A stretch of DNA of 40,953 nt from Spirochaetaceae bacterium (lineage in GTDB: Bacteria > Spirochaetota > Spirochaetia > Treponematales > Rectinemataceae), in the NCBI GenBank assembly GCA_025355995.1, contig JANXYQ010000086.1:1-40953 (forward strand). Direction: 5' to 3'. Position 1 is the first letter of the stretch; each line of letters opens with the position of its first letter. Position numbers and translations under genes: made by a program. The notes beneath the pieces were generated by a model. It saw nothing but the letters and a program-made list of their open reading frames with translations, had not been told where the DNA came from and made no database searches. Of the stretch, positions 7,683 to 16,807 are shown piece by piece.

Positions 7683-8321
7683 ATGACTCGGAATTCACTC
7701 ATCAGGCGGCCGTTCCGCTATAGCTTCAAGAACCTCTCGATATGGCTCATCGCCGTCAACGTGCTGGTCTTCGCGCTGGAGTACCTCTTCCCGCAGGTCG
7801 GGGGATACCTGGCGATGACTCCGGCGCTCGTGCTCTCGGGAGCTGTATGGCAGCCGCTGACCTACATGTTCGCGCACGCCAACCTCACGCACCTCCTCGT
7901 GAACATGCTCGGCCTGCTCTTCTTCGGAACCGCTGTCGAGAAGGAGCTGGGCTCGCGGGAGTTCATCTTCTACTACCTCCTGATCGGCCTCCTCGCGGGC
8001 GTCTTCTCCTTCGCCGCCTACCTTTTCTCGGGCGGGGCCTACACTCCTCTCCTCGGGGCCTCCGGCGCCGTCTTCGCCGTCCTTCTCGCCTTCGCCACGC
8101 TGCAGCCCAACGCGCAGATCCTCATCTGGGGCCTGATTCCCGTCCGCGCCCCCGTCATGGTCATCGGCTACACGCTGATCGAGCTCTTCTCCCAGGTCAT
8201 CGGCACCTCGAGCAACGTCGCCCACCTGACCCACCTCGCGGGCTTCGCCTTCGGCTGGCTGTACTTCCTCGCGCGCTTCGGCGTCAATCCCTGGCGACGG
8301 TTCTTCCCCCGCGGCCGATGA
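7683..8321 (+). CDS. Rhomboid family intramembrane serine protease
   Basis: 212 aa, six or so membrane helices, the usual size of a minimal bacterial rhomboid. Cleaves transmembrane substrates within the inner membrane. Catalytic dyad: Ser127 in GASGAVF and His184 in HLTHLAG; the oxyanion-type residues His/Asn are seen in HLLVNMLGLLFFG. Its stop overlaps the start of the next gene (ATGA), so the downstream secreted protein is co-translated and could be a partner or substrate; that link is inference only. Confidence 0.93.
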   Translation: MTRNSLIRRPFRYSFKNLSIWLIAVNVLVFALEYLFPQVGGYLAMTPALVLSGAVWQPLTYMFAHANLTHLLVNMLGLLFFGTAVEKELGSREFIFYYLLIGLLAGVFSFAAYLFSGGAYTPLLGASGAVFAVLLAFATLQPNAQILIWGLIPVRAPVMVIGYTLIELFSQVIGTSSNVAHLTHLAGFAFGWLYFLARFGVNPWRRFFPRGR

Positions 8322-9025
8322 AGGCCCCGTCGCTCGCGCGGATCGGCCCAGCATTCGCGATGGCGCTGGCCCTCGCCGCCGGCGCCTCCGGGCCCTGCCG
8401 CGCGCAGTCCCCGTCCCCCGCCGGCAAGGAGCTGCTGCGCGCCGAGTTCTGGGCCGACATCGAGCCGGTGGCGGGCGTGGGCGACGAATGGCCGGTCGGT
8501 CCGCAGACCCTGCGCTCGCGCGTCCTCGACGAGTCGGCCTGGGTGTTCGGGGGCATGGTCTGGGGCTTCGAATTCAGGTATGCACCCTTCGACAAGACGA
8601 GGGCCATCCAGGAGCGCTTCGACCTCGCGCCCATCCAGTCCCTGGACGCGAAAGAGCTGTCCTTGGCCCCCGGCGCCCGGATGAGCACGCCGGACGCCTT
8701 TTATTCGTTCGTCGAATACGCTCCCGACGCCTCGCTGCTGTCGCTAATGGAGAGTTACGCGTACGACCCCTGGAAGGGCGCGCAGGGCATCGGGAAGGCC
8801 GACATGAGCCAGGGCGTCAAGGGCAGGCGCGCGGCCTACGTCGACGCCCTCAGGGCCGCGGTCCGCTCGTTGCTGCAGGGCCTGGAGCCGAACAAGCCGC
8901 GGCTGGTCCGGGGCAGGGTGGTCTTCGACAGGCCGCCCTCGATGGCTATCATCGGCGGCAGCTATACGGCCCAGGTGCGGGCCCGGGCGATGGTGATCGA
9001 GGTCATTCCCTACAAGGTGTATTGA
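8318..9025 (+). CDS. Conserved secreted protein of unknown function
   Basis: 235 aa. Start ATG 8318 overlaps the rhomboid stop. A Sec signal peptide with hydrophobic core at residues ~9-24 ends near CRAQ. The mature part is soluble-looking, with no recognised catalytic motif; visible blocks are WPVGPQTLRSRV near the N-terminus, MVWGFEFRYAP in the middle and IGGSYTAQVRARAMV near the C-terminus. I do not recognise a family; it resembles conserved periplasmic proteins of treponemes only in general character. Confidence 0.8.
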   Translation: MKAPSLARIGPAFAMALALAAGASGPCRAQSPSPAGKELLRAEFWADIEPVAGVGDEWPVGPQTLRSRVLDESAWVFGGMVWGFEFRYAPFDKTRAIQERFDLAPIQSLDAKELSLAPGARMSTPDAFYSFVEYAPDASLLSLMESYAYDPWKGAQGIGKADMSQGVKGRRAAYVDALRAAVRSLLQGLEPNKPRLVRGRVVFDRPPSMAIIGGSYTAQVRARAMVIEVIPYKVY

Positions 9026-9109
9026 CGCGGAGAACGCATCGCCCGTGGGAAAAACCGCGTGCCGTAGCGGAAGAATTATTGCTCGTGCCCTAGCCGAATC
9101 TCCGCGCTT

Positions 9110-10003
9110 TCACTGAGAAGAAAGCCTGTCCTTCTCGGTCGCTTCGTGGAGGCGCTCGAGCTGTGCCATGATCTCGTCCACGATCGCCTGCTTCTTGTCC
9201 TCTCGGAAGCGATGCTCGTGCTTCACCTGCTCGCGGAAGGCGGGGCAGTCGATGACGGGGCTGACCGTGTAGATGACCCGGTCCTCGCAGACCAAGTCCT
9301 CCATCATCCCGCCCTCTGAGTTGAGGCGCAGGATATTGCCGTTGATCCCCACGAAGCACATCTTCGAGAACGACTTCACGTAAGACGAGATCTCCCGCAC
9401 GCCCTTCTTGCTGTCGGGGTCCCAGGGCCGGTAGCGCGTGCCCGAGGGAAAGACGAGGACGAGGTTGCCCTGCTTCTTGAGCTCGTTGAGAGCCCTCATC
9501 GAGGCGAGGTTGACGGTAGTGCTCCTCATCATCTCGGCCAGGAGCTCCTTGGGGTCCTTGAAGTTGTCCTTGATGATCTCGAGGGATCGCGAGGGGTATA
9601 CTACCAGCCTCGTATAGGCCTCGGTGAAGGCGAGGACGACGGGGCTGGACTCATTGAGCTTGATGCCGGCTATCGCGAGGAGGGAGTCGGCGATTGCCTG
9701 CCCCTCGGGCCCGGCCTGCCTGAGCAGGTAGTGGAAGACGGGAAGGTCGAAGTTGGAGTAGTGCTCGAGGAAGAGGATGCAGGGCTCTCCGGCGGAGGCG
9801 GCCGCGAGCAACTCCCGGAGATTCTCCAGCCCGCGAACGGTCGATCCCGGCAGTAGATTCTCGGAGATTATGGAATCGATGAAGGGCAGGATATCGGGGT
9901 TGCCCTGTTGGTGCACGTTCTTGTCGGAGACGGTCATTTGGCCGCGCGAAACGGCCATCATGCGCATTATGCGATCGCGGTACTTGCGGCTGATGGGTTC
10001 CAA
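9110..10003 (-). CDS. PlsC-like glycerolipid acyltransferase
   Basis: 297 aa. Likely transfers an acyl group to glycerol-3-phosphate or lysophosphatidate at the inner membrane. The HxxxxD motif is HYSNFD and the substrate-binding motif is FPSGTRYRPW, a variant of the usual FPEGTRS. The start is TTG 10003, with AGGAGG five bases upstream. An in-frame start at 10045 is ruled out because a near-perfect promoter overlaps it. The Glu-to-Ser change in the second motif points to a divergent member (LPLAT superfamily), so the exact acceptor is uncertain. Confidence 0.85.
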   Translation of the reverse strand: MEPISRKYRDRIMRMMAVSRGQMTVSDKNVHQQGNPDILPFIDSIISENLLPGSTVRGLENLRELLAAASAGEPCILFLEHYSNFDLPVFHYLLRQAGPEGQAIADSLLAIAGIKLNESSPVVLAFTEAYTRLVVYPSRSLEIIKDNFKDPKELLAEMMRSTTVNLASMRALNELKKQGNLVLVFPSGTRYRPWDPDSKKGVREISSYVKSFSKMCFVGINGNILRLNSEGGMMEDLVCEDRVIYTVSPVIDCPAFREQVKHEHRFREDKKQAIVDEIMAQLERLHEATEKDRLSSQ

Positions 10004-10023
10004 AAAGGCCTCCTGACGGCAGG

Positions 10024-10052
10024 AGTATAGACAGCGACCCGCCATGTGTCAA
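10024..10052 (-). promoter_or_regulatory. Consensus promoter of the acyltransferase gene
   Basis: TTGACA (10052-10047), 17 bp, TATACT (10029-10024) on the minus strand, the closest match to sigma-70 consensus in the window. Start expected near 10017, giving a ~14-nt leader with AGGAGG and the TTG start at 10003. Confidence 0.85.
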
Positions 10053-10070
10053 CTTCGCGGGCCGCTTTCC

Positions 10071-11741
10071 CTAATAGCCGTCCGACAGCGAGCGGTTGAC
10101 GTCCTTCTGGTAGAGCTCCTGATAGACGTAGCTGCGGTTCTTGAGCTTCTCCTTGATATCCTTGGAGAAGGGCATGTACCGCCAGAAGATCCCGCGGATC
10201 TCCTTCTCGAGCTTCTGGATCCCCTCGGCCTCCTTGGTGATCCAGATGAGGTAGTCCTGGATGAAGTACTCCTTCACGTCGCCTCGGATCTTGCGGGACT
10301 GGAACCACTGGTAGTAGTTGCCCGTCAGGCCCTCTTCCATCCAGTAGTAGGAGGCCTTCTCCTTGGCCACCTGCCAGCGCAGGTCCGCGACCGCCGTGAG
10401 CACGGCGAGGCTGAGGTTCTTCGGGTACATCGGGATCGCGACGCGCCCGCGGCTCGTCGCCCGGTTGTGGTTGTCGAAGGGCTCCCAGCAGACGCCCGAG
10501 TCGCCGTAGCAGGGCACGAGGAGGACGAAGGGGACTATCCTGTTGAGGGCGCTCTTGTAGGGCCTGCAGAAGGCCTCGCAGTCTATCGACTCGATCCAGG
10601 CGAGGGCGTGCACGACGTTCTCCCGCGTGGCGATGTCCTTGATGCTCCCGTGGAAGTACTCGCGGGAGAGCAGCGGGAAATGGTTGCCCTGGCGGCCGAT
10701 GCACAGCCTCGTCATCTGCCGGAGCGTGTCGAATTCCTGGGCGAGGGTCTGCATGTCCGCCTTGGCTTCCTGGCCGAGGGCCCCGGCCTTCTCCTGGACG
10801 GTCTTCAGGTCCTCGCCCGCCTTGTCGAATTCGCCTATCGTCTGCATGAGCTCCTTGTCCACCGCCAGCATCTTCCGGATGATGTCGTAGAGCTCGCCCA
10901 TGGATTTCTTCTGCGTATCGTTGTAGGCCGCGGGCACGTGGAGCAGGCCCGGCTGGCTCTGGTGGCTGCAGATGCCGTCTACCCTCTCCTTGAGCAGGGA
11001 CTCGAGCTGGCGCCTCTCCTCCGCCTTCGCCTTCATGATTCCCTCGGAGGCGTCGCGCTTGCCCTGGGCCCGCTGTAGGAGGAGGGCGAAGCGCGACTTG
11101 TCGTCGCCGTCCTTGGCCCTCGGCTTGATCTCGTCGGTGGCGCTCGCGCTCACGAGGCCCGTCGCCACGGCGCGCATCCACTCGTCGACGTAATAGACCG
11201 GCTCGTCGATCTGCTTCTCGTAGACGACCCGGTGGAAGATCTCGGCCATCTCGGGCGAGAGCAGGTTGGGGAGGATGGCCGCGAAGCGGACGGCGATCTT
11301 CTTGGGTATCGGCGACTGGGCGCCTATCGAATGGAGGGCGAGCTTGGAGGCGATGTACCAATAGGCGGGGATGAGCTGCTGGCGGTAGACGCCCTTGTCC
11401 TTCGGGTCGGTGGCCTTGAGGTACTTGCCCAGGAGCTCGTGGAGTTTCGTGGCCTCCTCGCCCTCGCCGCCGAGGACCGTCTTGTAGTAGGCCGGGTCCG
11501 CGAACCAGGCAGCCGGCTTCTCGGCTTCCATCTTCGTCACCTGGTCGAAGCCCTTGCGGGTCAGGTCCACGTCGAACTCGCCCTTGTCGCGGGGCTCGGC
11601 GTTCGGGTCCATGCCGCCGAAGAGCGAGGTGAAGTCCGGCGGCAGCGAAGTTCCAACGGGAGCCTTCTGCGTCCCCGGACGATATTCCTCGACCGAAGCT
11701 CCGATCAGGGCGGCAATCTCGGGGTCAATGTCGTCGGACAC
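10071..11741 (-). CDS. Large conserved protein of unknown function
   Basis: 556 aa, soluble, no signal peptide or membrane helix. The start is GTG 11741 (first residues SDDIDPEIAAL) with GGAG seven bases upstream. A probable coiled-coil lies at ~residues 215-345 (charged K/E/A-rich stretch, KAKAEERRQLESLLKERV). The C-terminal half has many aromatics and cysteines (CYGDSGVCWEPF, YYWMEEGL, YYQWFQSRK). I recognise no named domain; proteins of this kind appear to be shared among treponemes (memory, not searched). It stands alone between the acyltransferase and the DUF475 gene. Confidence 0.8.
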   Translation of the reverse strand: MSDDIDPEIAALIGASVEEYRPGTQKAPVGTSLPPDFTSLFGGMDPNAEPRDKGEFDVDLTRKGFDQVTKMEAEKPAAWFADPAYYKTVLGGEGEEATKLHELLGKYLKATDPKDKGVYRQQLIPAYWYIASKLALHSIGAQSPIPKKIAVRFAAILPNLLSPEMAEIFHRVVYEKQIDEPVYYVDEWMRAVATGLVSASATDEIKPRAKDGDDKSRFALLLQRAQGKRDASEGIMKAKAEERRQLESLLKERVDGICSHQSQPGLLHVPAAYNDTQKKSMGELYDIIRKMLAVDKELMQTIGEFDKAGEDLKTVQEKAGALGQEAKADMQTLAQEFDTLRQMTRLCIGRQGNHFPLLSREYFHGSIKDIATRENVVHALAWIESIDCEAFCRPYKSALNRIVPFVLLVPCYGDSGVCWEPFDNHNRATSRGRVAIPMYPKNLSLAVLTAVADLRWQVAKEKASYYWMEEGLTGNYYQWFQSRKIRGDVKEYFIQDYLIWITKEAEGIQKLEKEIRGIFWRYMPFSKDIKEKLKNRSYVYQELYQKDVNRSLSDGY

Positions 11742-11810
11742 AGGCGTTCTCCGCTTCGTCCCGGCATGCCCCGCTGCTGCGGAGGCCCTGACTGCCGAGG
11801 CCGAATTTTA

Positions 11811-12761
11811 CTAGATTGTATCGCTCCCCGCCCCGCCCTTCAAGGCACCGGCGCCCCTGGCGTCCAAGACCGACTTGATGAAGAAGAAGCCGACGATGAT
11901 GAAGGTCGCCAGGGGGGAGAGCCACTCGGGGAGGCCGAGGCCGAAGGCCTCGCAGGTCATCACGGATCCCAGGGCGAGGATCGAGTACATCGCGCCGTTC
12001 TTGAGGAAGCGGTATTTCTTGATCCGCTCTATGTTGCCCACCGTGATCTGCCTGACGACTATCGCCCCGAGGCCGTTGCCGAGGAGGATGATGGGCACCG
12101 AGAGCGTGAAGGCGAAGGCGCCGAGGACCCCGTCTATCGAGAAGGTCAGGTCGATTATCTCGAGGTAGAGCAGTTTGGAGATGTCGGACATCGCGGAGCC
12201 GAGGAGGCTCGACTCCTGCTTCTCCGCGTTCTGCTTGAATCCGCTGGTGACGAAGAAGGCGGTCGAGCCGATGGTTACCGCGAAGGCGAGCTTGCCGCCC
12301 GCCTCGGAGCCGAACCATACCAGCGCGCAGATGAGGAGGGAGGCCGCGGCGTAGAACCACACTCCCTGCCGCATGAAGAAGCGCTCGCCCGGCAGGCCGA
12401 AGGCCTTGGGTTCCTGGAAGAGCCAGTGGAGGAACAGGAGGAGGAGGAAGACCCCTCCCGCCATGAGGAGGACCGGCTTGGCCGATTCGATCGCCTCGCG
12501 CACGAGGGGGTCGCTCGAGAAGGCAGCCATGAAGGCGCCGATCGGGCCGAGCCCGGGCAGGGTTCCCCAGACTATGAGCCAGGGCAGGAGTCCCCTGACG
12601 GCGAAGACCGCGATCAGGATGCCCCAGGTGAGGAACCACTTCCTGGCCTTCTTGCCGAGCCCTCCGAGGACTTCGGCGTTGATGATCGCGTTGTCCACGC
12701 TGGACACCGTCTCGAAGAGGCAGAGGCCGGCGACCGTTATGAGGATCGTTAGGATGGGCAT
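11811..12761 (-). CDS. DUF475 / TerC-like integral membrane protein
   Basis: 316 aa, about eight membrane helices. Matches the DUF475 group of the TerC superfamily: an acidic motif in a first helix (ETVSSVDNAIINAEVL) and a second one (LTFSIDGVLGAFAFT), the paired Asp-containing helices thought to bind metal ions. TerC relatives are linked to manganese or other metal export and metallation of secreted proteins; the substrate here is unknown. The start ATG 12761 has no ribosome site, and the promoter places the transcript 5' end at the ATG (see 12767-12796). Confidence 0.88.
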   Translation of the reverse strand: MPILTILITVAGLCLFETVSSVDNAIINAEVLGGLGKKARKWFLTWGILIAVFAVRGLLPWLIVWGTLPGLGPIGAFMAAFSSDPLVREAIESAKPVLLMAGGVFLLLLFLHWLFQEPKAFGLPGERFFMRQGVWFYAAASLLICALVWFGSEAGGKLAFAVTIGSTAFFVTSGFKQNAEKQESSLLGSAMSDISKLLYLEIIDLTFSIDGVLGAFAFTLSVPIILLGNGLGAIVVRQITVGNIERIKKYRFLKNGAMYSILALGSVMTCEAFGLGLPEWLSPLATFIIVGFFFIKSVLDARGAGALKGGAGSDTI

Positions 12762-12796
12762 GGCCCACTATAGCCCGAGCCCTCCGGCGCGGGCAA
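12762..12796 (-). promoter_or_regulatory. Leaderless-type promoter of the DUF475 gene
   Basis: TTGCCC (12796-12791), 18 bp, TATAGT (12772-12767), five bases GGGCC, then ATG 12761-12759. Expected start point is at the A of ATG. The promoter occupies the whole gap after the DUF362-ferredoxin gene stop. Confidence 0.65.
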
Positions 12797-13951
12797 TCAG
12801 CGGAGCAGCATCTTGATGAACCAGGGCCTGGAAATGCCGACGGCTCCGTGGGCGCAGAGCTCGTGGCAGCAGAAGCACCTGATGCAGAGGCTCAGGTCGA
12901 CGGACGGCCTCCCGTCCTTCATCGCGATGGCCTTGGGCGGGCATGCCTTCGCGCACATGCCGCAGCCCAGGCATTTTTGCCATTCGAAGGTGGGCTTTGG
13001 CTTGATGACGTTATTGAGCCGCTTCTTCAGGAATTTCGGGAGGAGGATGGCGTAGAAATTGAAGGCGACCTTAACGGTCGGCTTCTTGAAGTCCGCGACG
13101 CGGACCTCGTCCGGATTCTCGCCCAGGACGGCGATGGCCCCGGCCCCGGACGGGCAGAGCCCGCGCTCGATAGACTTGCGGATCGTCGGGACCTGCCTGG
13201 CCTTGAGCCCGATGAGGTCGGCGGCGACCGCGTCGAGGGCGAAGGGATTCGCGCTCGAAATGACGAGGCCTACCTTCCTCGGCGTCCCGTTGGTCGGGCC
13301 GTAGCCCTCCATCCCGATGATCGCGTCCATGACGGTGAGGCAGGGCTTGGCGAAGAGGCAGAGATCTATGAGGAGGTCGGCGAATTCCTCGCTGTCCTCG
13401 AAGCGCAGGTGGTACTCGGCCTTGTAGCTTCCCGGGATGATGCCGAAGAGGTTCTTCACCGCCCCGCTGTATACCGTCATCATGTGGGTCTTGATCCTGG
13501 GGATGCTGATGACCTTGTCGGCCTCGAGGAGGGGCCGTATCGTCTTGACGAGCTTGATTACCCTGCCCTCGGGGTAGGGGACGTCCACCGCCTCGGTGTC
13601 GTAGTTCAGCTGCGCCCCACTGGCCTCCGCGGCCTCCGTCATGCCGCACGTCTCATACACCGACTCGAGGGTCTTCCGGGTGTAGAAATGGTAGCCGCCG
13701 GGGCTGTCGCCGATGACGGGCTTGCCCCCGGCCTCCTTCACGAGCTCGGCGACGGCGCGGGCTACGGCGGGATGGGTGGTGGTGGCCTTCTCGGGCCTGC
13801 GTTTCATCAACAGGCTCACCTTGAGGAGGACCCTCTCGCCGGGCCGGATGAATTTCCCGATGCCGCCCAGGAGGTCGATCGACCGCGCGACGGCGCTCTT
13901 GACCTCGGCATACTCGTAATCGCCGCATCGCGCAATCGCGACTTCGCTCAT
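12797..13951 (-). CDS. DUF362 protein with C-terminal 2x[4Fe-4S] ferredoxin domain
   Basis: 384 aa, cytoplasmic. Residues ~1-300 are a DUF362 domain, with landmarks GERVLLKVSLL, PVIGDSPGG, ISIPRIKTH, VKNLFGIIPG and AIIGMEGYGPTNG. The last ~60 residues carry two ferredoxin cluster motifs, CLGCGMCAKACPP and CIRCFCCHELC, the second with an adjacent Cys-Cys. This suggests electron transfer to or from whatever the DUF362 domain does; no reaction is established for the family that I can name. Start ATG 13951 follows GGGAGG. Last gene of a four-gene operon; the permease stop lies 11 bp upstream. Confidence 0.9.
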   Translation of the reverse strand: MSEVAIARCGDYEYAEVKSAVARSIDLLGGIGKFIRPGERVLLKVSLLMKRRPEKATTTHPAVARAVAELVKEAGGKPVIGDSPGGYHFYTRKTLESVYETCGMTEAAEASGAQLNYDTEAVDVPYPEGRVIKLVKTIRPLLEADKVISIPRIKTHMMTVYSGAVKNLFGIIPGSYKAEYHLRFEDSEEFADLLIDLCLFAKPCLTVMDAIIGMEGYGPTNGTPRKVGLVISSANPFALDAVAADLIGLKARQVPTIRKSIERGLCPSGAGAIAVLGENPDEVRVADFKKPTVKVAFNFYAILLPKFLKKRLNNVIKPKPTFEWQKCLGCGMCAKACPPKAIAMKDGRPSVDLSLCIRCFCCHELCAHGAVGISRPWFIKMLLR

Positions 13952-13962
13952 CCCAGCCTCCC

Positions 13963-14871
13963 TCATCGGACCACGGCCAGCGCCGCATCGATCGCGAGGC
14001 CCGAGGCGATCGCGAAGACGAGGTTGAAGGCGATGTACAGCATGAAATTCCTCGTCCCGAGGAGGATCTTGACCGCGCCCAGGTTCGTGAGCTTGGTCGC
14101 CGGGCCGCTGATCATGAAGGCGATGGCCGACCCGGGCGACATGCCCATCTCGAGGGCGGCCTTCAGCAGCGGAATCGTCCCGCCCCCGCAGAGATAGGCG
14201 GGCACCCCGACCGAGGCGGCGATGACCGGCCCGAAGCCCGATCGGGGACCGAGGCTCGTGGCAGCCCATTCCCTCGGGAAATACTGGTCGAATAGGGCGG
14301 TTAAGGCGATGCCTCCGAGGAAATAGGGCGCAGTCTTGTAGAGGCCCCTCCAGAGGCTCGCCGCGAAATCCCGTGCCGAGGGGACTTTCCCCCGCTCGCC
14401 GCGCTCGGGGAAGACGCCCAGGTCGAAGAGCCTCCGATTCCCGAACAGGTATCGGACGGCCAGGCCGGCCGCCGCGCCCGCGGCGAGACAGGCGCCGAGC
14501 CTCATGATGGCGATGGGCAGTCCCAGGGCCAGGCTAAAGGCGAAGAGGTTCGGATTGATGAGAATGGAGGAGATCATGAAAGCGGCGAGGAGGTACTGGG
14601 GCGCCCCTCCTCGAGCCAGCGAGGCGAGGAGGGGGATGGTGCCGTACATACAGACCGGCGAGGCCGCGCCTAGAAGGGCGGCGAGGAGGCTCCTAGGCAG
14701 GGCATGGTCCGAGCCCCCGAGCCGCGCGACGGCCCCGGATATCCTCGCCCCGAGGAACACCGAGACCAGCGAGCCGATGACCAGACCGCAGGCCCAATAG
14801 GGGGCTATCCTCGCGAACTGGACGGCCACGAGCTCGGCCAGGTGGGCGGTTTCCCAGGTCCCTGTCATCAT
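13963..14871 (-). CDS. Permease of the ArsP/YraQ (PF03773-like) family
   Basis: 302 aa, about eight to ten membrane helices. The two pseudo-symmetric motifs of this family are visible: AASPVCMYGTIPLLASL and VPAYLCGGGTIPLLKAAL, each with a membrane-embedded cysteine, followed by INPNLFAFS and FMISGPATKL. Relatives export organoarsenicals or are annotated as putative metal/permease proteins; the substrate here is unknown. Start ATG 14871 (or 14868) directly follows GAGGGG, which overlaps the preceding DUF362 stop, so translation is coupled. It lies between two DUF362 genes. Confidence 0.85.
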   Translation of the reverse strand: MMTGTWETAHLAELVAVQFARIAPYWACGLVIGSLVSVFLGARISGAVARLGGSDHALPRSLLAALLGAASPVCMYGTIPLLASLARGGAPQYLLAAFMISSILINPNLFAFSLALGLPIAIMRLGACLAAGAAAGLAVRYLFGNRRLFDLGVFPERGERGKVPSARDFAASLWRGLYKTAPYFLGGIALTALFDQYFPREWAATSLGPRSGFGPVIAASVGVPAYLCGGGTIPLLKAALEMGMSPGSAIAFMISGPATKLTNLGAVKILLGTRNFMLYIAFNLVFAIASGLAIDAALAVVR

Positions 14872-14875
14872 CCCC

Positions 14876-15868
14876 TCATTTCGCCCTCTTGAAGCTGCTC
14901 TTGAAGTCCATCTTGATCTCGTCCAGCTTGGCGCCCACGACTTTGATTTTCGCGAGATCGGATACGCCGAGCCCTTGAGCGGCCGCGAGCTTGACGTGGG
15001 GAACCTGACTGAGCGCGAAGCCCATGAAGGTCAGGGCGACCGTGTCCAGCGCGACGGGATCCCTCCCCGCGAGGACTATCTCGGACTTGACGGGCGTATT
15101 GTATACCGGGCCATAGCCCTCGCCGCCCACCACGCCGTCGATCACCGCGAAATCGGGCATGCGGATCATGTTCAGGTCGACGATGATCTCGGAGAGCGGA
15201 AAGCTGTGGAGGCCGTTCTTGTCGCCGTAGCCCCCGTAGATCTTCTCCGACGGGATGCCGAAGCTGTTCTTCAGGGTGAGGGAGACGACGGCCTCGGGGA
15301 TGGAGTGGGTTTTGAGCTTGGGAACCTCTATCAGGACGTCGGCGTCCATGACGATCTTGGGAATGAACAGGCTTCTCCCGACGAGGCTCTTGGGGGGCTT
15401 GAGCTCGTAGCAATCCTTCTTCTCGCAGGAGTTGAAGTTGAAGAGTTCCACCCCCTTGATAGTGTCGTATTTGCTGATGGCGGCGTGGGTCTTGCTGAAG
15501 GAATCGCCTTGGAAGCCTCCCTCGGCGATTATTATCCGCGAAGGCTCCAGGGCTTTGAGCATGTCGACGAGGGTCGCGACGACCCGGTAATCCGTAGTCT
15601 TGGGATCGTCCGGGAAAGGCCCCGTGCAGAGATTCGGCTTGATCAGGACGACATCGCCCTTCTTGACGAGGCCGGTCAGGCCCCCGGCGTTTTCGATGGC
15701 CGTTCGGGTGGCGACCGCATAATCGCCTCCCCGGCCGATCCCGACGATTGGCTCGGGCGAGAGATCCGGCAGTGGCTTGACCACGGGGACGGCGCCGAGG
15801 GCGAGGGGTGCGAAGGCGAGTGCGATCGCCAATGCGAGCAGGTTTCCGGATCTTGGTCTCACGAGCAT
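14876..15868 (-). CDS. Secreted DUF362 domain protein
   Basis: 330 aa with a Sec-type signal peptide (hydrophobic core ~residues 9-25, ending near LGAVP). The DUF362 domain follows: VLIKPNLCTG, IIIAEGGFQGD, IEVPKLKTH, LKNSFGIPS, VIDGVVGGEGYGP. It lacks the ferredoxin tail of its paralogue encoded two genes downstream. Three other cysteines occur (NFNSCEKKDC region). Start ATG 15868 follows AAGGAG. Having one cytoplasmic and one exported DUF362 protein flanking a permease suggests a job split across the membrane (inference). Confidence 0.88.
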   Translation of the reverse strand: MLVRPRSGNLLALAIALAFAPLALGAVPVVKPLPDLSPEPIVGIGRGGDYAVATRTAIENAGGLTGLVKKGDVVLIKPNLCTGPFPDDPKTTDYRVVATLVDMLKALEPSRIIIAEGGFQGDSFSKTHAAISKYDTIKGVELFNFNSCEKKDCYELKPPKSLVGRSLFIPKIVMDADVLIEVPKLKTHSIPEAVVSLTLKNSFGIPSEKIYGGYGDKNGLHSFPLSEIIVDLNMIRMPDFAVIDGVVGGEGYGPVYNTPVKSEIVLAGRDPVALDTVALTFMGFALSQVPHVKLAAAQGLGVSDLAKIKVVGAKLDEIKMDFKSSFKRAK

Positions 15869-15889
15869 GACCGACTCCTTTTTTGCGGC

Positions 15890-16654
15890 TCAGAAAAAGG
15901 CCGAGAGGCTGAGGATGGCGGTGATTGCCGCGAAATAGGCGAAATAATAGAGCATTCCCTTGGGCTTCAAGATCAGGGCCAGCGCGGCGAGCGCGGAGAA
16001 ATCGGTGAGGGTCGCCAGGATCCTCATCGCCAGGAGGAAAAAGGGATTCTCCACGTTGCGCCTCGCGAAGAAGGCAGGCAGGAACGCGGTGGCCGGGCTC
16101 GCATAGAGGAAGCCGATGACGGCGCCCAGAGCGTAGCGGCGGAAGGCCGTGTCGGCCAGGGCCCCTGCCGCGAGGCAGGCCAGGGACGCGGCGATGGCCG
16201 GGAGGGCGGAACGCGGCCTGGGACGGAAGACGCTCGTCTCGCAGGGCCTCGCTCGCAGCGCGAGGAGGCCGCCGAGGCTCCCCGCCGCGAGGGCTAGGAT
16301 AATGCGGCCATAGCCCGTCCTCCAGATAAAAGTCGGATCCGTGAACGGCACGAGAGAATTGAAGAGGGCGTTGGCGCAGAGGAAGGGGACGGCGAGCGCG
16401 AGATCGAGGCCGGCGGCCAGGGCGAAGGCCGCCATGGGCGCGGCGCCCCAGAGGCCGAGGGGGAGCAGGACCCCTAATCCGGACGCGGAGAGCGTTCCTG
16501 CGAAGGCGGCCAGGCCGGAGGCGTTCCCGATCCCCGCGCGGATACGGCCCGCCTTGGCCAGGCGGTAGATCGGAAGGGCGAGTGCGCAACCTGCCACGAA
16601 TTGGATGAGGCTCGATCCGAAGCCGGCGAGCGAGTACGAAAGGAAAGCGAGCAT
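15890..16654 (-). CDS. Polytopic membrane protein, possible divergent permease
   Basis: 254 aa, strongly hydrophobic, about eight helices. Parts of the pattern (LLPLGLWGAAPMAAFAL, then a helix with NALFNS and a Gly/Ala-rich helix) resemble the PF03773-like permease encoded two genes downstream, but the CxxG motif is missing. The start ATG 16654 is preferred: the in-frame ATG 16672 lies upstream of a TATACT (16668-16663) that would leave it out of the transcript. First gene of a four-gene operon with gaps of 21, 4 and 11 bp. Function unknown. Confidence 0.75.
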   Translation of the reverse strand: MLAFLSYSLAGFGSSLIQFVAGCALALPIYRLAKAGRIRAGIGNASGLAAFAGTLSASGLGVLLPLGLWGAAPMAAFALAAGLDLALAVPFLCANALFNSLVPFTDPTFIWRTGYGRIILALAAGSLGGLLALRARPCETSVFRPRPRSALPAIAASLACLAAGALADTAFRRYALGAVIGFLYASPATAFLPAFFARRNVENPFFLLAMRILATLTDFSALAALALILKPKGMLYYFAYFAAITAILSLSAFF

Positions 16655-16662
16655 ATCGCGGG

Positions 16663-16668
16663 AGTATA
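16663..16668 (-). promoter_or_regulatory. -10 element of the membrane protein/DUF362 operon
   Basis: TATACT on the minus strand, eight bases before ATG 16654, so the leader would be only one or two bases. No convincing -35 at 16-18 bp (TTGGCC is at 20 bp). Confidence 0.45.
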
Positions 16669-16694
16669 GCATCCCTATTCGTCCGCTCGGCCAA

Positions 16695-16726
16695 TAAAAA
16701 AGGCCACCGCGTCGCGGTGACCTTTC
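16695..16726 (-). terminator. Intrinsic terminator of tRNA-Ala
   Basis: Minus-strand stem AAAGGTCACCGCG / CGCGGTGGCCTTT with one mismatch and a tiny loop, followed by TTTTTTATT. It starts about 8 bp after the tRNA 3' end. Confidence 0.85.
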
Positions 16727-16733
16727 TTACTCG

Positions 16734-16807
<74 letters not shown>

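Follow-up and report, generated by a model that had tools for sequence, protein, structure and literature searches.

Two groups of described proteins stand closest to the products of a putative four-gene operon that we analyzed at positions 12797 to 16654 of a 40,953-nucleotide stretch of DNA (contig JANXYQ010000086.1, assembly GCA_025355995.1; the whole stretch is called the window below) from Spirochaetaceae bacterium, a member of the order Treponematales. One is the PF03773/ArsP_1 family of permeases, with ArsP, SO_0444, and SaoE; ArsP and SO_0444 are said to export soft metals or organometals, and our search for SaoE/SaoT found no relevant literature. The other is the LarA superfamily (Lar_N/DUF2088) with its nickel-pincer nucleotide cofactor. 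In LarA1, the residues that bind the cofactor are K184 and R75, nickel is bound by H200, and catalysis falls to H108 and H174 (PMC7583248); LarA homologues with a single histidine exist (PMC12611868). DUF362 (PF04015) belongs to the same Pfam clan as DUF2088, CL0471, and has served as an outgroup (PMC11770544); the kinship between DUF362 and LarA is thus already known at the clan level. About 15% of the genomes analyzed in PMC11796402 carry the set larB, larE, and larC without larA, and the same paper considers it likely that in most cyanobacteria the cofactor serves a protein still to be identified. The literature found that mentions DUF362, PMC11770544 and PMC5742341 included, reports no function for it, and none of the papers found on this family or on LarB, LarE, and LarC names DUF362, by title or abstract, as a client of the cofactor.

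The operon consists of the following genes:

15890-16654, minus strand: gene 1, a membrane protein of 254 amino acids (aa), with an in-frame ATG at 16672 as an alternative start
14876-15868, minus strand: gene 2, a predicted exported DUF362 protein of 330 aa with a LarA-type fold in its model
13963-14871, minus strand: gene 3, a PF03773/ArsP_1 permease of 302 aa
12797-13951, minus strand: gene 4, a DUF362 protein of 384 aa with a C-terminal ferredoxin domain for two [4Fe-4S] clusters

The gaps between successive genes measure 21, 4, and 11 bp, and the coordinates of the open reading frames (ORFs) thereby bear out the first-pass annotation of the window, which had described four genes so spaced.

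The arrangement of these genes recurs beyond chance. From a scan of GTDB species genomes for the gene 3 family, the best 80 of 597 loci were kept (L087-L166). All four genes are present in identical order in a metagenome-assembled genome (MAG) of Clostridia (L124), where the products of genes 1 to 4 share 25%, 48%, 45%, and 44% identity with the window proteins, and genes 1 to 3 are present in a Lutispora MAG (L087; 38%, 58%, and 51% identity), in which the contig then ends. A DUF362-like gene was found in 77 of the 80 permease loci, the three without it being L137, L139, and L159, and it adjoins the permease gene on the same strand within 250 bp in 67 of them. Among 29 loci from the order, a set that has some genomes in common with the 80, DUF362 is present in 24 and adjoining in 21. 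Many of the DUF362 neighbors start, as judged by eye, with a signal or lipoprotein-like sequence. These data indicated a conserved DUF362-permease core that spans several phyla; the four-gene form seen in the window is rare. A lack of co-conservation elsewhere had been named in the first-pass annotation as one result that would refute the unit, but co-conservation was found, in full in L124, for genes 1 to 3 in L087, and for the core in many other genomes.

Gene 2 encodes a member of DUF362 by its Pfam score (117 bits against a cut-off of 24), and its N terminus reads by eye as a Sec-type signal sequence, with no twin-arginine motif. A sequence search of the PDB returned nothing convincing for this protein. 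Its AlphaFold2 model (pLDDT of 83.9 and pTM of 0.85) was compared with known structures; LarA and malate racemase structures ranked first in Foldseek (E value of 4e-7), and in a second look against the PDB the best match was malate racemase 6d6z (Z of 19.4 and root mean square deviation of 2.5 over 212 aligned residues). Entries of the LarA family occupy the range from Z 19.4 to 17.1, followed by a T. maritima protein at 15.0, and the next entry falls to 5.9. Judged from the model, gene 2 would thus have the N-terminal fold of LarA. The match covers residues 34 to 266 of the 393 in the 6d6z chain, and unlike LarA, the gene 2 protein is without the C-terminal domain and is predicted to be exported.

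Conserved residues may point in the same direction. In an alignment of 40 DUF362 proteins (38 of 59 listed entries plus the two window proteins), all of which match Pfam DUF362 at an E value of ≤0.001 and three of which also match Lar_N, K186, H188, K200, and H221 of gene 2 are invariant (40/40). The LarA alignment used for comparison holds four of nine fetched LarA loci, with near-duplicates, the divergent L169, and L177 (for which a wrong ORF had been chosen) left out. In weakly scored profile alignments (hhalign), the KTH motif of the gene 2 type falls on the PH of the LarA PH...K motif and the conserved lysine on its K, such that K200, H188, and H221 are aligned with K184, H174, and H200 of LarA. 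By these weak alignments, one lysine and two histidines would stand at matching positions in the two families, which also share a predicted fold over about 212 residues and a Pfam clan.

Gene 3 is a PF03773 permease by its Pfam score (115 bits, cut-off of 32.3), and the two membrane cysteines that the first-pass annotation had pointed out proved to be invariant. C74 and C228, which lie in the motifs CMYG and CGGG of the CxxG type, are kept in 26 of 26 aligned proteins from the order (25 of the 29 loci L028-L056 plus gene 3, a set in which this conservation does not arise by construction) and in 33 of 33 from the broader scan (32 of the 80 permeases plus gene 3), in which it does so in part, the scan patterns having included the cysteines. 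The protein thus keeps the paired cysteine motifs of the family. It differs from the named members in scoring under the NCBIfam cut-offs for the SO_0444 Cu/Zn efflux family (93 bits versus 300) and SaoE (48 bits versus 325), in the CMYG/CGGG form of its motifs, in its near-constant DUF362 neighbor, and in the presence of a paralogue without those cysteines, gene 1. Its model (pLDDT of 88.8) gave no Foldseek match at an E value of ≤0.001, and a PDB sequence search found nothing. In the second look, ArsB was the best match, with a Z of 14.4 over 280 residues, a value that helical models commonly reach according to the tool's own warning, and VcINDY, NaCT, and TRAP transporters followed at Z of about 10 to 12. 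The model suggests that gene 3 is possibly an elevator-type carrier of the ion transporter superfamily, in which the conserved cysteine motifs could sit at re-entrant hairpins.

The paralogue in question is the product of gene 1. It reaches 9.7 bits against Pfam ArsP_1, under the cut-off of 32.3, and neither PDB sequences nor plasmids yielded anything useful (no match at all in the latter). A profile of the three gene 1 proteins aligned with the gene 3 profile over 223 columns, at a probability of 95.5% and an E value of 1.5e-8, and the gene 1 hidden Markov model (HMM) matched gene 3-family proteins at E values from 2e-14 to 2e-3. This profile comparison confirms that genes 1 and 3 are paralogues, gene 1 being the divergent relative of the permease that its appearance had suggested, and gene 1 has neither of the two cysteines invariant in gene 3. 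Its orthologues were found in three genomes only, those of the window, L087, and L124. Relatives at an E value of ≤1e-3 are absent from the other 193 of 194 genomes of the order, 392 genomes of the phylum gave weak matches and no convincing orthologue beyond the window's own genome, and a strong match occurs in 1 of 33 genomes of the L124 order and in 1 of 366 genomes of the L087 class, in each case the genome of that locus itself. The weaker matches look like gene 3-type permeases, judging by a reading frame of about 300 aa and by the cross-match of the gene 1 HMM to the gene 3 family.

Gene 4 encodes the second DUF362 protein (204 bits, cut-off of 24), with additional Fer4 (4Fe-4S) matches, the cysteine motifs CxxCxxCxxxCP and CxxCxxCxxxC, and no signal sequence seen. 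Both the assignment of genes 2 and 4 to DUF362 and the two 4Fe-4S motifs of gene 4 were thus correctly called at first pass. The protein has the DUF362-ferredoxin layout of the family represented by Npun_F2552; the equivalog cut-off of 500 bits for that family is, however, reached neither by gene 4 (197 bits) nor by gene 2 (95 bits), and DUF362 is tied here to a permease. A weak match of gene 4 to nickel-pincer isomerases (E value of 5.6e-5) was also recorded.

A connection to the cofactor emerged from the gene neighborhoods. In 5 of the 80 loci (L101, L124, L135, L137, and L165), homologues of larB, larC, or larE occur no more than about 6 kb from the permease gene, and in a sixth locus, from the order set (L201), the genes run DUF362, permease, larE, larB, larC. 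The lar-linked loci differ in gene order and represent about five lineages, L135 and L165 looking like one. In L124, larE, larB, and larC are divergent from gene 1, and in L165 a larE-larB-larC run leads into the permease gene, with a 4-base overlap between larC and the permease as called. In L101 (Clostridium polyendosporum, 7868-12829), genes for a CbiM/NikM-like transporter, an ABC protein, larC, and larE lie downstream of the DUF362-permease pair. By a rough estimate, chance would place a lar cluster at no more than about 0.36 of the 80 loci if each genome held one, and the probability of four or more is 5e-4. Across 194 genomes of the order, those with the permease have LarC more often (26 of 48) than those lacking it (44 of 146; P = 0.003, kinship ignored; the 48 were picked at an identity of at least 40%, and 10 of them hold fragments only). 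Strong LarA matches in the same genomes are not associated with the permease (15/48 versus 47/146).

We tentatively favor a reading, possible rather than probable, in which the operon encodes a carrier and, coupled to it, an extracytoplasmic protein of LarA fold, both serving a ligand of the nickel-pincer type or another thiophilic one. Its core would be the gene 3 permease and the gene 2 protein, the latter predicted to lie outside the cytoplasm. The DUF362 proteins would bind a ligand resembling the nickel-pincer nucleotide or another thiophilic metal ligand, and gene 3 would move this ligand, or the substrate of DUF362, by means of its two cysteines. Gene 4 may be the inner (cytoplasmic) redox or acceptor partner. 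Gene 1, without the two cysteines, is perhaps a partner subunit of gene 3, and the carrier might then be a heteromer of the two in which one half is silent. The first-pass annotation had proposed redox-linked transport or the handling of metals, with arsenicals and sulfur in view. The former part fits the cysteine pair, the two [4Fe-4S] motifs, and the larBCE neighbors; as to the wider part, the LarA fold of DUF362, not seen at first pass, favors a ligand of the nickel-pincer type or a related one over arsenic or sulfur in general.

Several results weigh against the reading that we favor. The profile alignments of DUF362 with LarA are weak (E values of 0.01 to 0.03), and the 40 DUF362 proteins contain no invariant arginine and no third invariant histidine as counterparts of R75 and H108. 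In the window's own genome (G000), LarC was not found and no LarE match exceeded the cut-off, a search in which LarB was not included, and no lar genes lie near the window operon. LarE over the cut-off is likewise absent from six tested genomes of genus g20, and 22 of the order's 48 genomes with the permease have no LarC. A sister genome (G060) carries a cluster of NikM-like, ABC, larE, larC, and larB genes (L205, contig C127, 8041-19255); in G000, both flanks of this cluster are found at positions 9500 to 15700 of contig C133 (L271), with an MFS-like gene and others between them. Because LarC and LarE are absent and the lar locus is occupied by other genes, local synthesis of the cofactor is missing in G000, barring the few per cent of the genome that is unassembled. 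Moreover, only 1 of 60 larC regions, which cover 59 of the 70 LarC-positive genomes (the other 11 were left out), holds DUF362 or the permease, and where LarC is present with no LarA match at all (20 genomes), the permease occurs in only 3. No LarA match was found in the 60 larC regions either. Dependence on the nickel-pincer cofactor as a rule was rejected on the basis of the genome without larC and larE and the count of 1 in 60; the link to the cofactor is recurrent, not obligate.

Among other explanations, the one that survives best is metal or metalloid efflux, in which the permease would export a soft metal or organometal and the DUF362 proteins would be chaperones or reductases. It draws on the PF03773 membership of gene 3 with its sub-threshold SO_0444 (93 bits) and SaoE (48 bits) matches, on the invariant cysteines, on ArsB as the best fold in the second look, and on a TerC gene next door (listed below). 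We consider it rather doubtful, since it leaves the LarA-fold partner unexplained and since a reading of the recurrent neighbor clusters by eye, short of a systematic search, turned up no gene for resistance to arsenic or metals. An improbable alternative is that the exported DUF362 protein acts, racemase-like, on a 2-hydroxy acid or related compound that the permease moves. Although the LarA fold of gene 2 and the second-look matches of gene 3 to VcINDY, NaCT, and TRAP transporters are in line with such a role, a carboxylate carrier would not be expected to have invariant membrane cysteines, the second catalytic histidine has no invariant equivalent, and middling Z values of this kind are common for helical proteins.

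Salvage of the cofactor is less probable still. Here, the exported DUF362 protein would capture nickel-pincer nucleotide, or a precursor, from neighboring organisms, and genes 1 and 3 would import it for LarA. The genome of the window has three LarA homologues (contigs C102, C120, and C46; L167-L169) but neither LarC nor LarE above the cut-off, and the exported LarA-fold protein does adjoin a permease. However, 37 of the 62 genomes of the order with strong LarA have no LarC, and the permease is found in only 3 of these 37 (G000, G140, and G192), a count that rules out salvage as a general rule; some permease loci, furthermore, stand with larBCE. Least probable is a loose gene set with a functional DUF362-permease core and genes 1 and 4 as incidental passengers, for although gene 1 orthologues are limited to three genomes, with no match in the rest of the order and none convincing elsewhere in the samples of the phylum and the clostridia, the same four-gene order in the clostridial MAG at 25 to 48% identity would need long selection for the arrangement.

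Around the operon, the following features were recorded:

16733-16807, minus strand: tRNA-Ala(GGC), predicted by ARAGORN, the upstream border of the unit
16702-16722, minus strand: a terminator-like hairpin followed by a T run, read from the sequence between tRNA-Ala and gene 1
16663-16671, minus strand: a putative extended -10-like element, read from the sequence 8 bases ahead of the gene 1 start at 16654
11811-12761, minus strand: a TerC/DUF475 membrane protein (Pfam DUF475 at 164 bits, TerC at 59.5 bits)

The promoter and terminator scan gave the hairpin on the plus strand only, and the extended -10-like element is not among its promoter matches. If real, this element would, speculatively, mean a leaderless or very short-leader gene 1 transcript. 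On the other side, the TerC/DUF475 gene starts 35 bp past gene 4 and is a possible fifth gene, with which the unit could be longer, although the scan reports a promoter-like match at 12796-12767 in the gap between them; no such gene was found after gene 4 in L124. Metalation of exported enzymes has been reported for TerC proteins (PMC10550928). Another 69 bp past the TerC gene, on the same strand, lies an ORF of 556 aa (10071-11741) without an above-threshold Pfam match. Recent horizontal transfer was considered and set aside, as the GC content of the operon (about 0.64) is within the window range of 0.61 to 0.70 and bears no mark of recency. Recurrent neighbors of the permease among the 80 loci, as read by eye, are a DUF4405-like membrane protein and an aldo/keto reductase (19 loci each), TetR (9 loci), a carboxymuconolactone decarboxylase-like protein (7 loci), and flavodoxin-like and exported flavodoxin-like proteins.

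For the DUF362 family as a whole, a wider proposal may be made, to which we give rather little weight: DUF362 could be a second family of nickel-pincer-nucleotide proteins, and a candidate client in genomes with larBCE and no LarA, and its exported members could have a dedicated permease carrying the cofactor or ligand. Of four control genomes with LarC and without LarA, those of Synechococcus elongatus and Haloferax volcanii contain DUF362, and no match to it was obtained in Corynebacterium glutamicum or Methanocaldococcus jannaschii. DUF362 proteins are common, and linking them to nickel-pincer chemistry by fold, invariant residues, and gene neighborhood opens the question of the missing clients to testing. 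An exported protein of LarA fold served by its own permease would, if true, be a new place for this chemistry.

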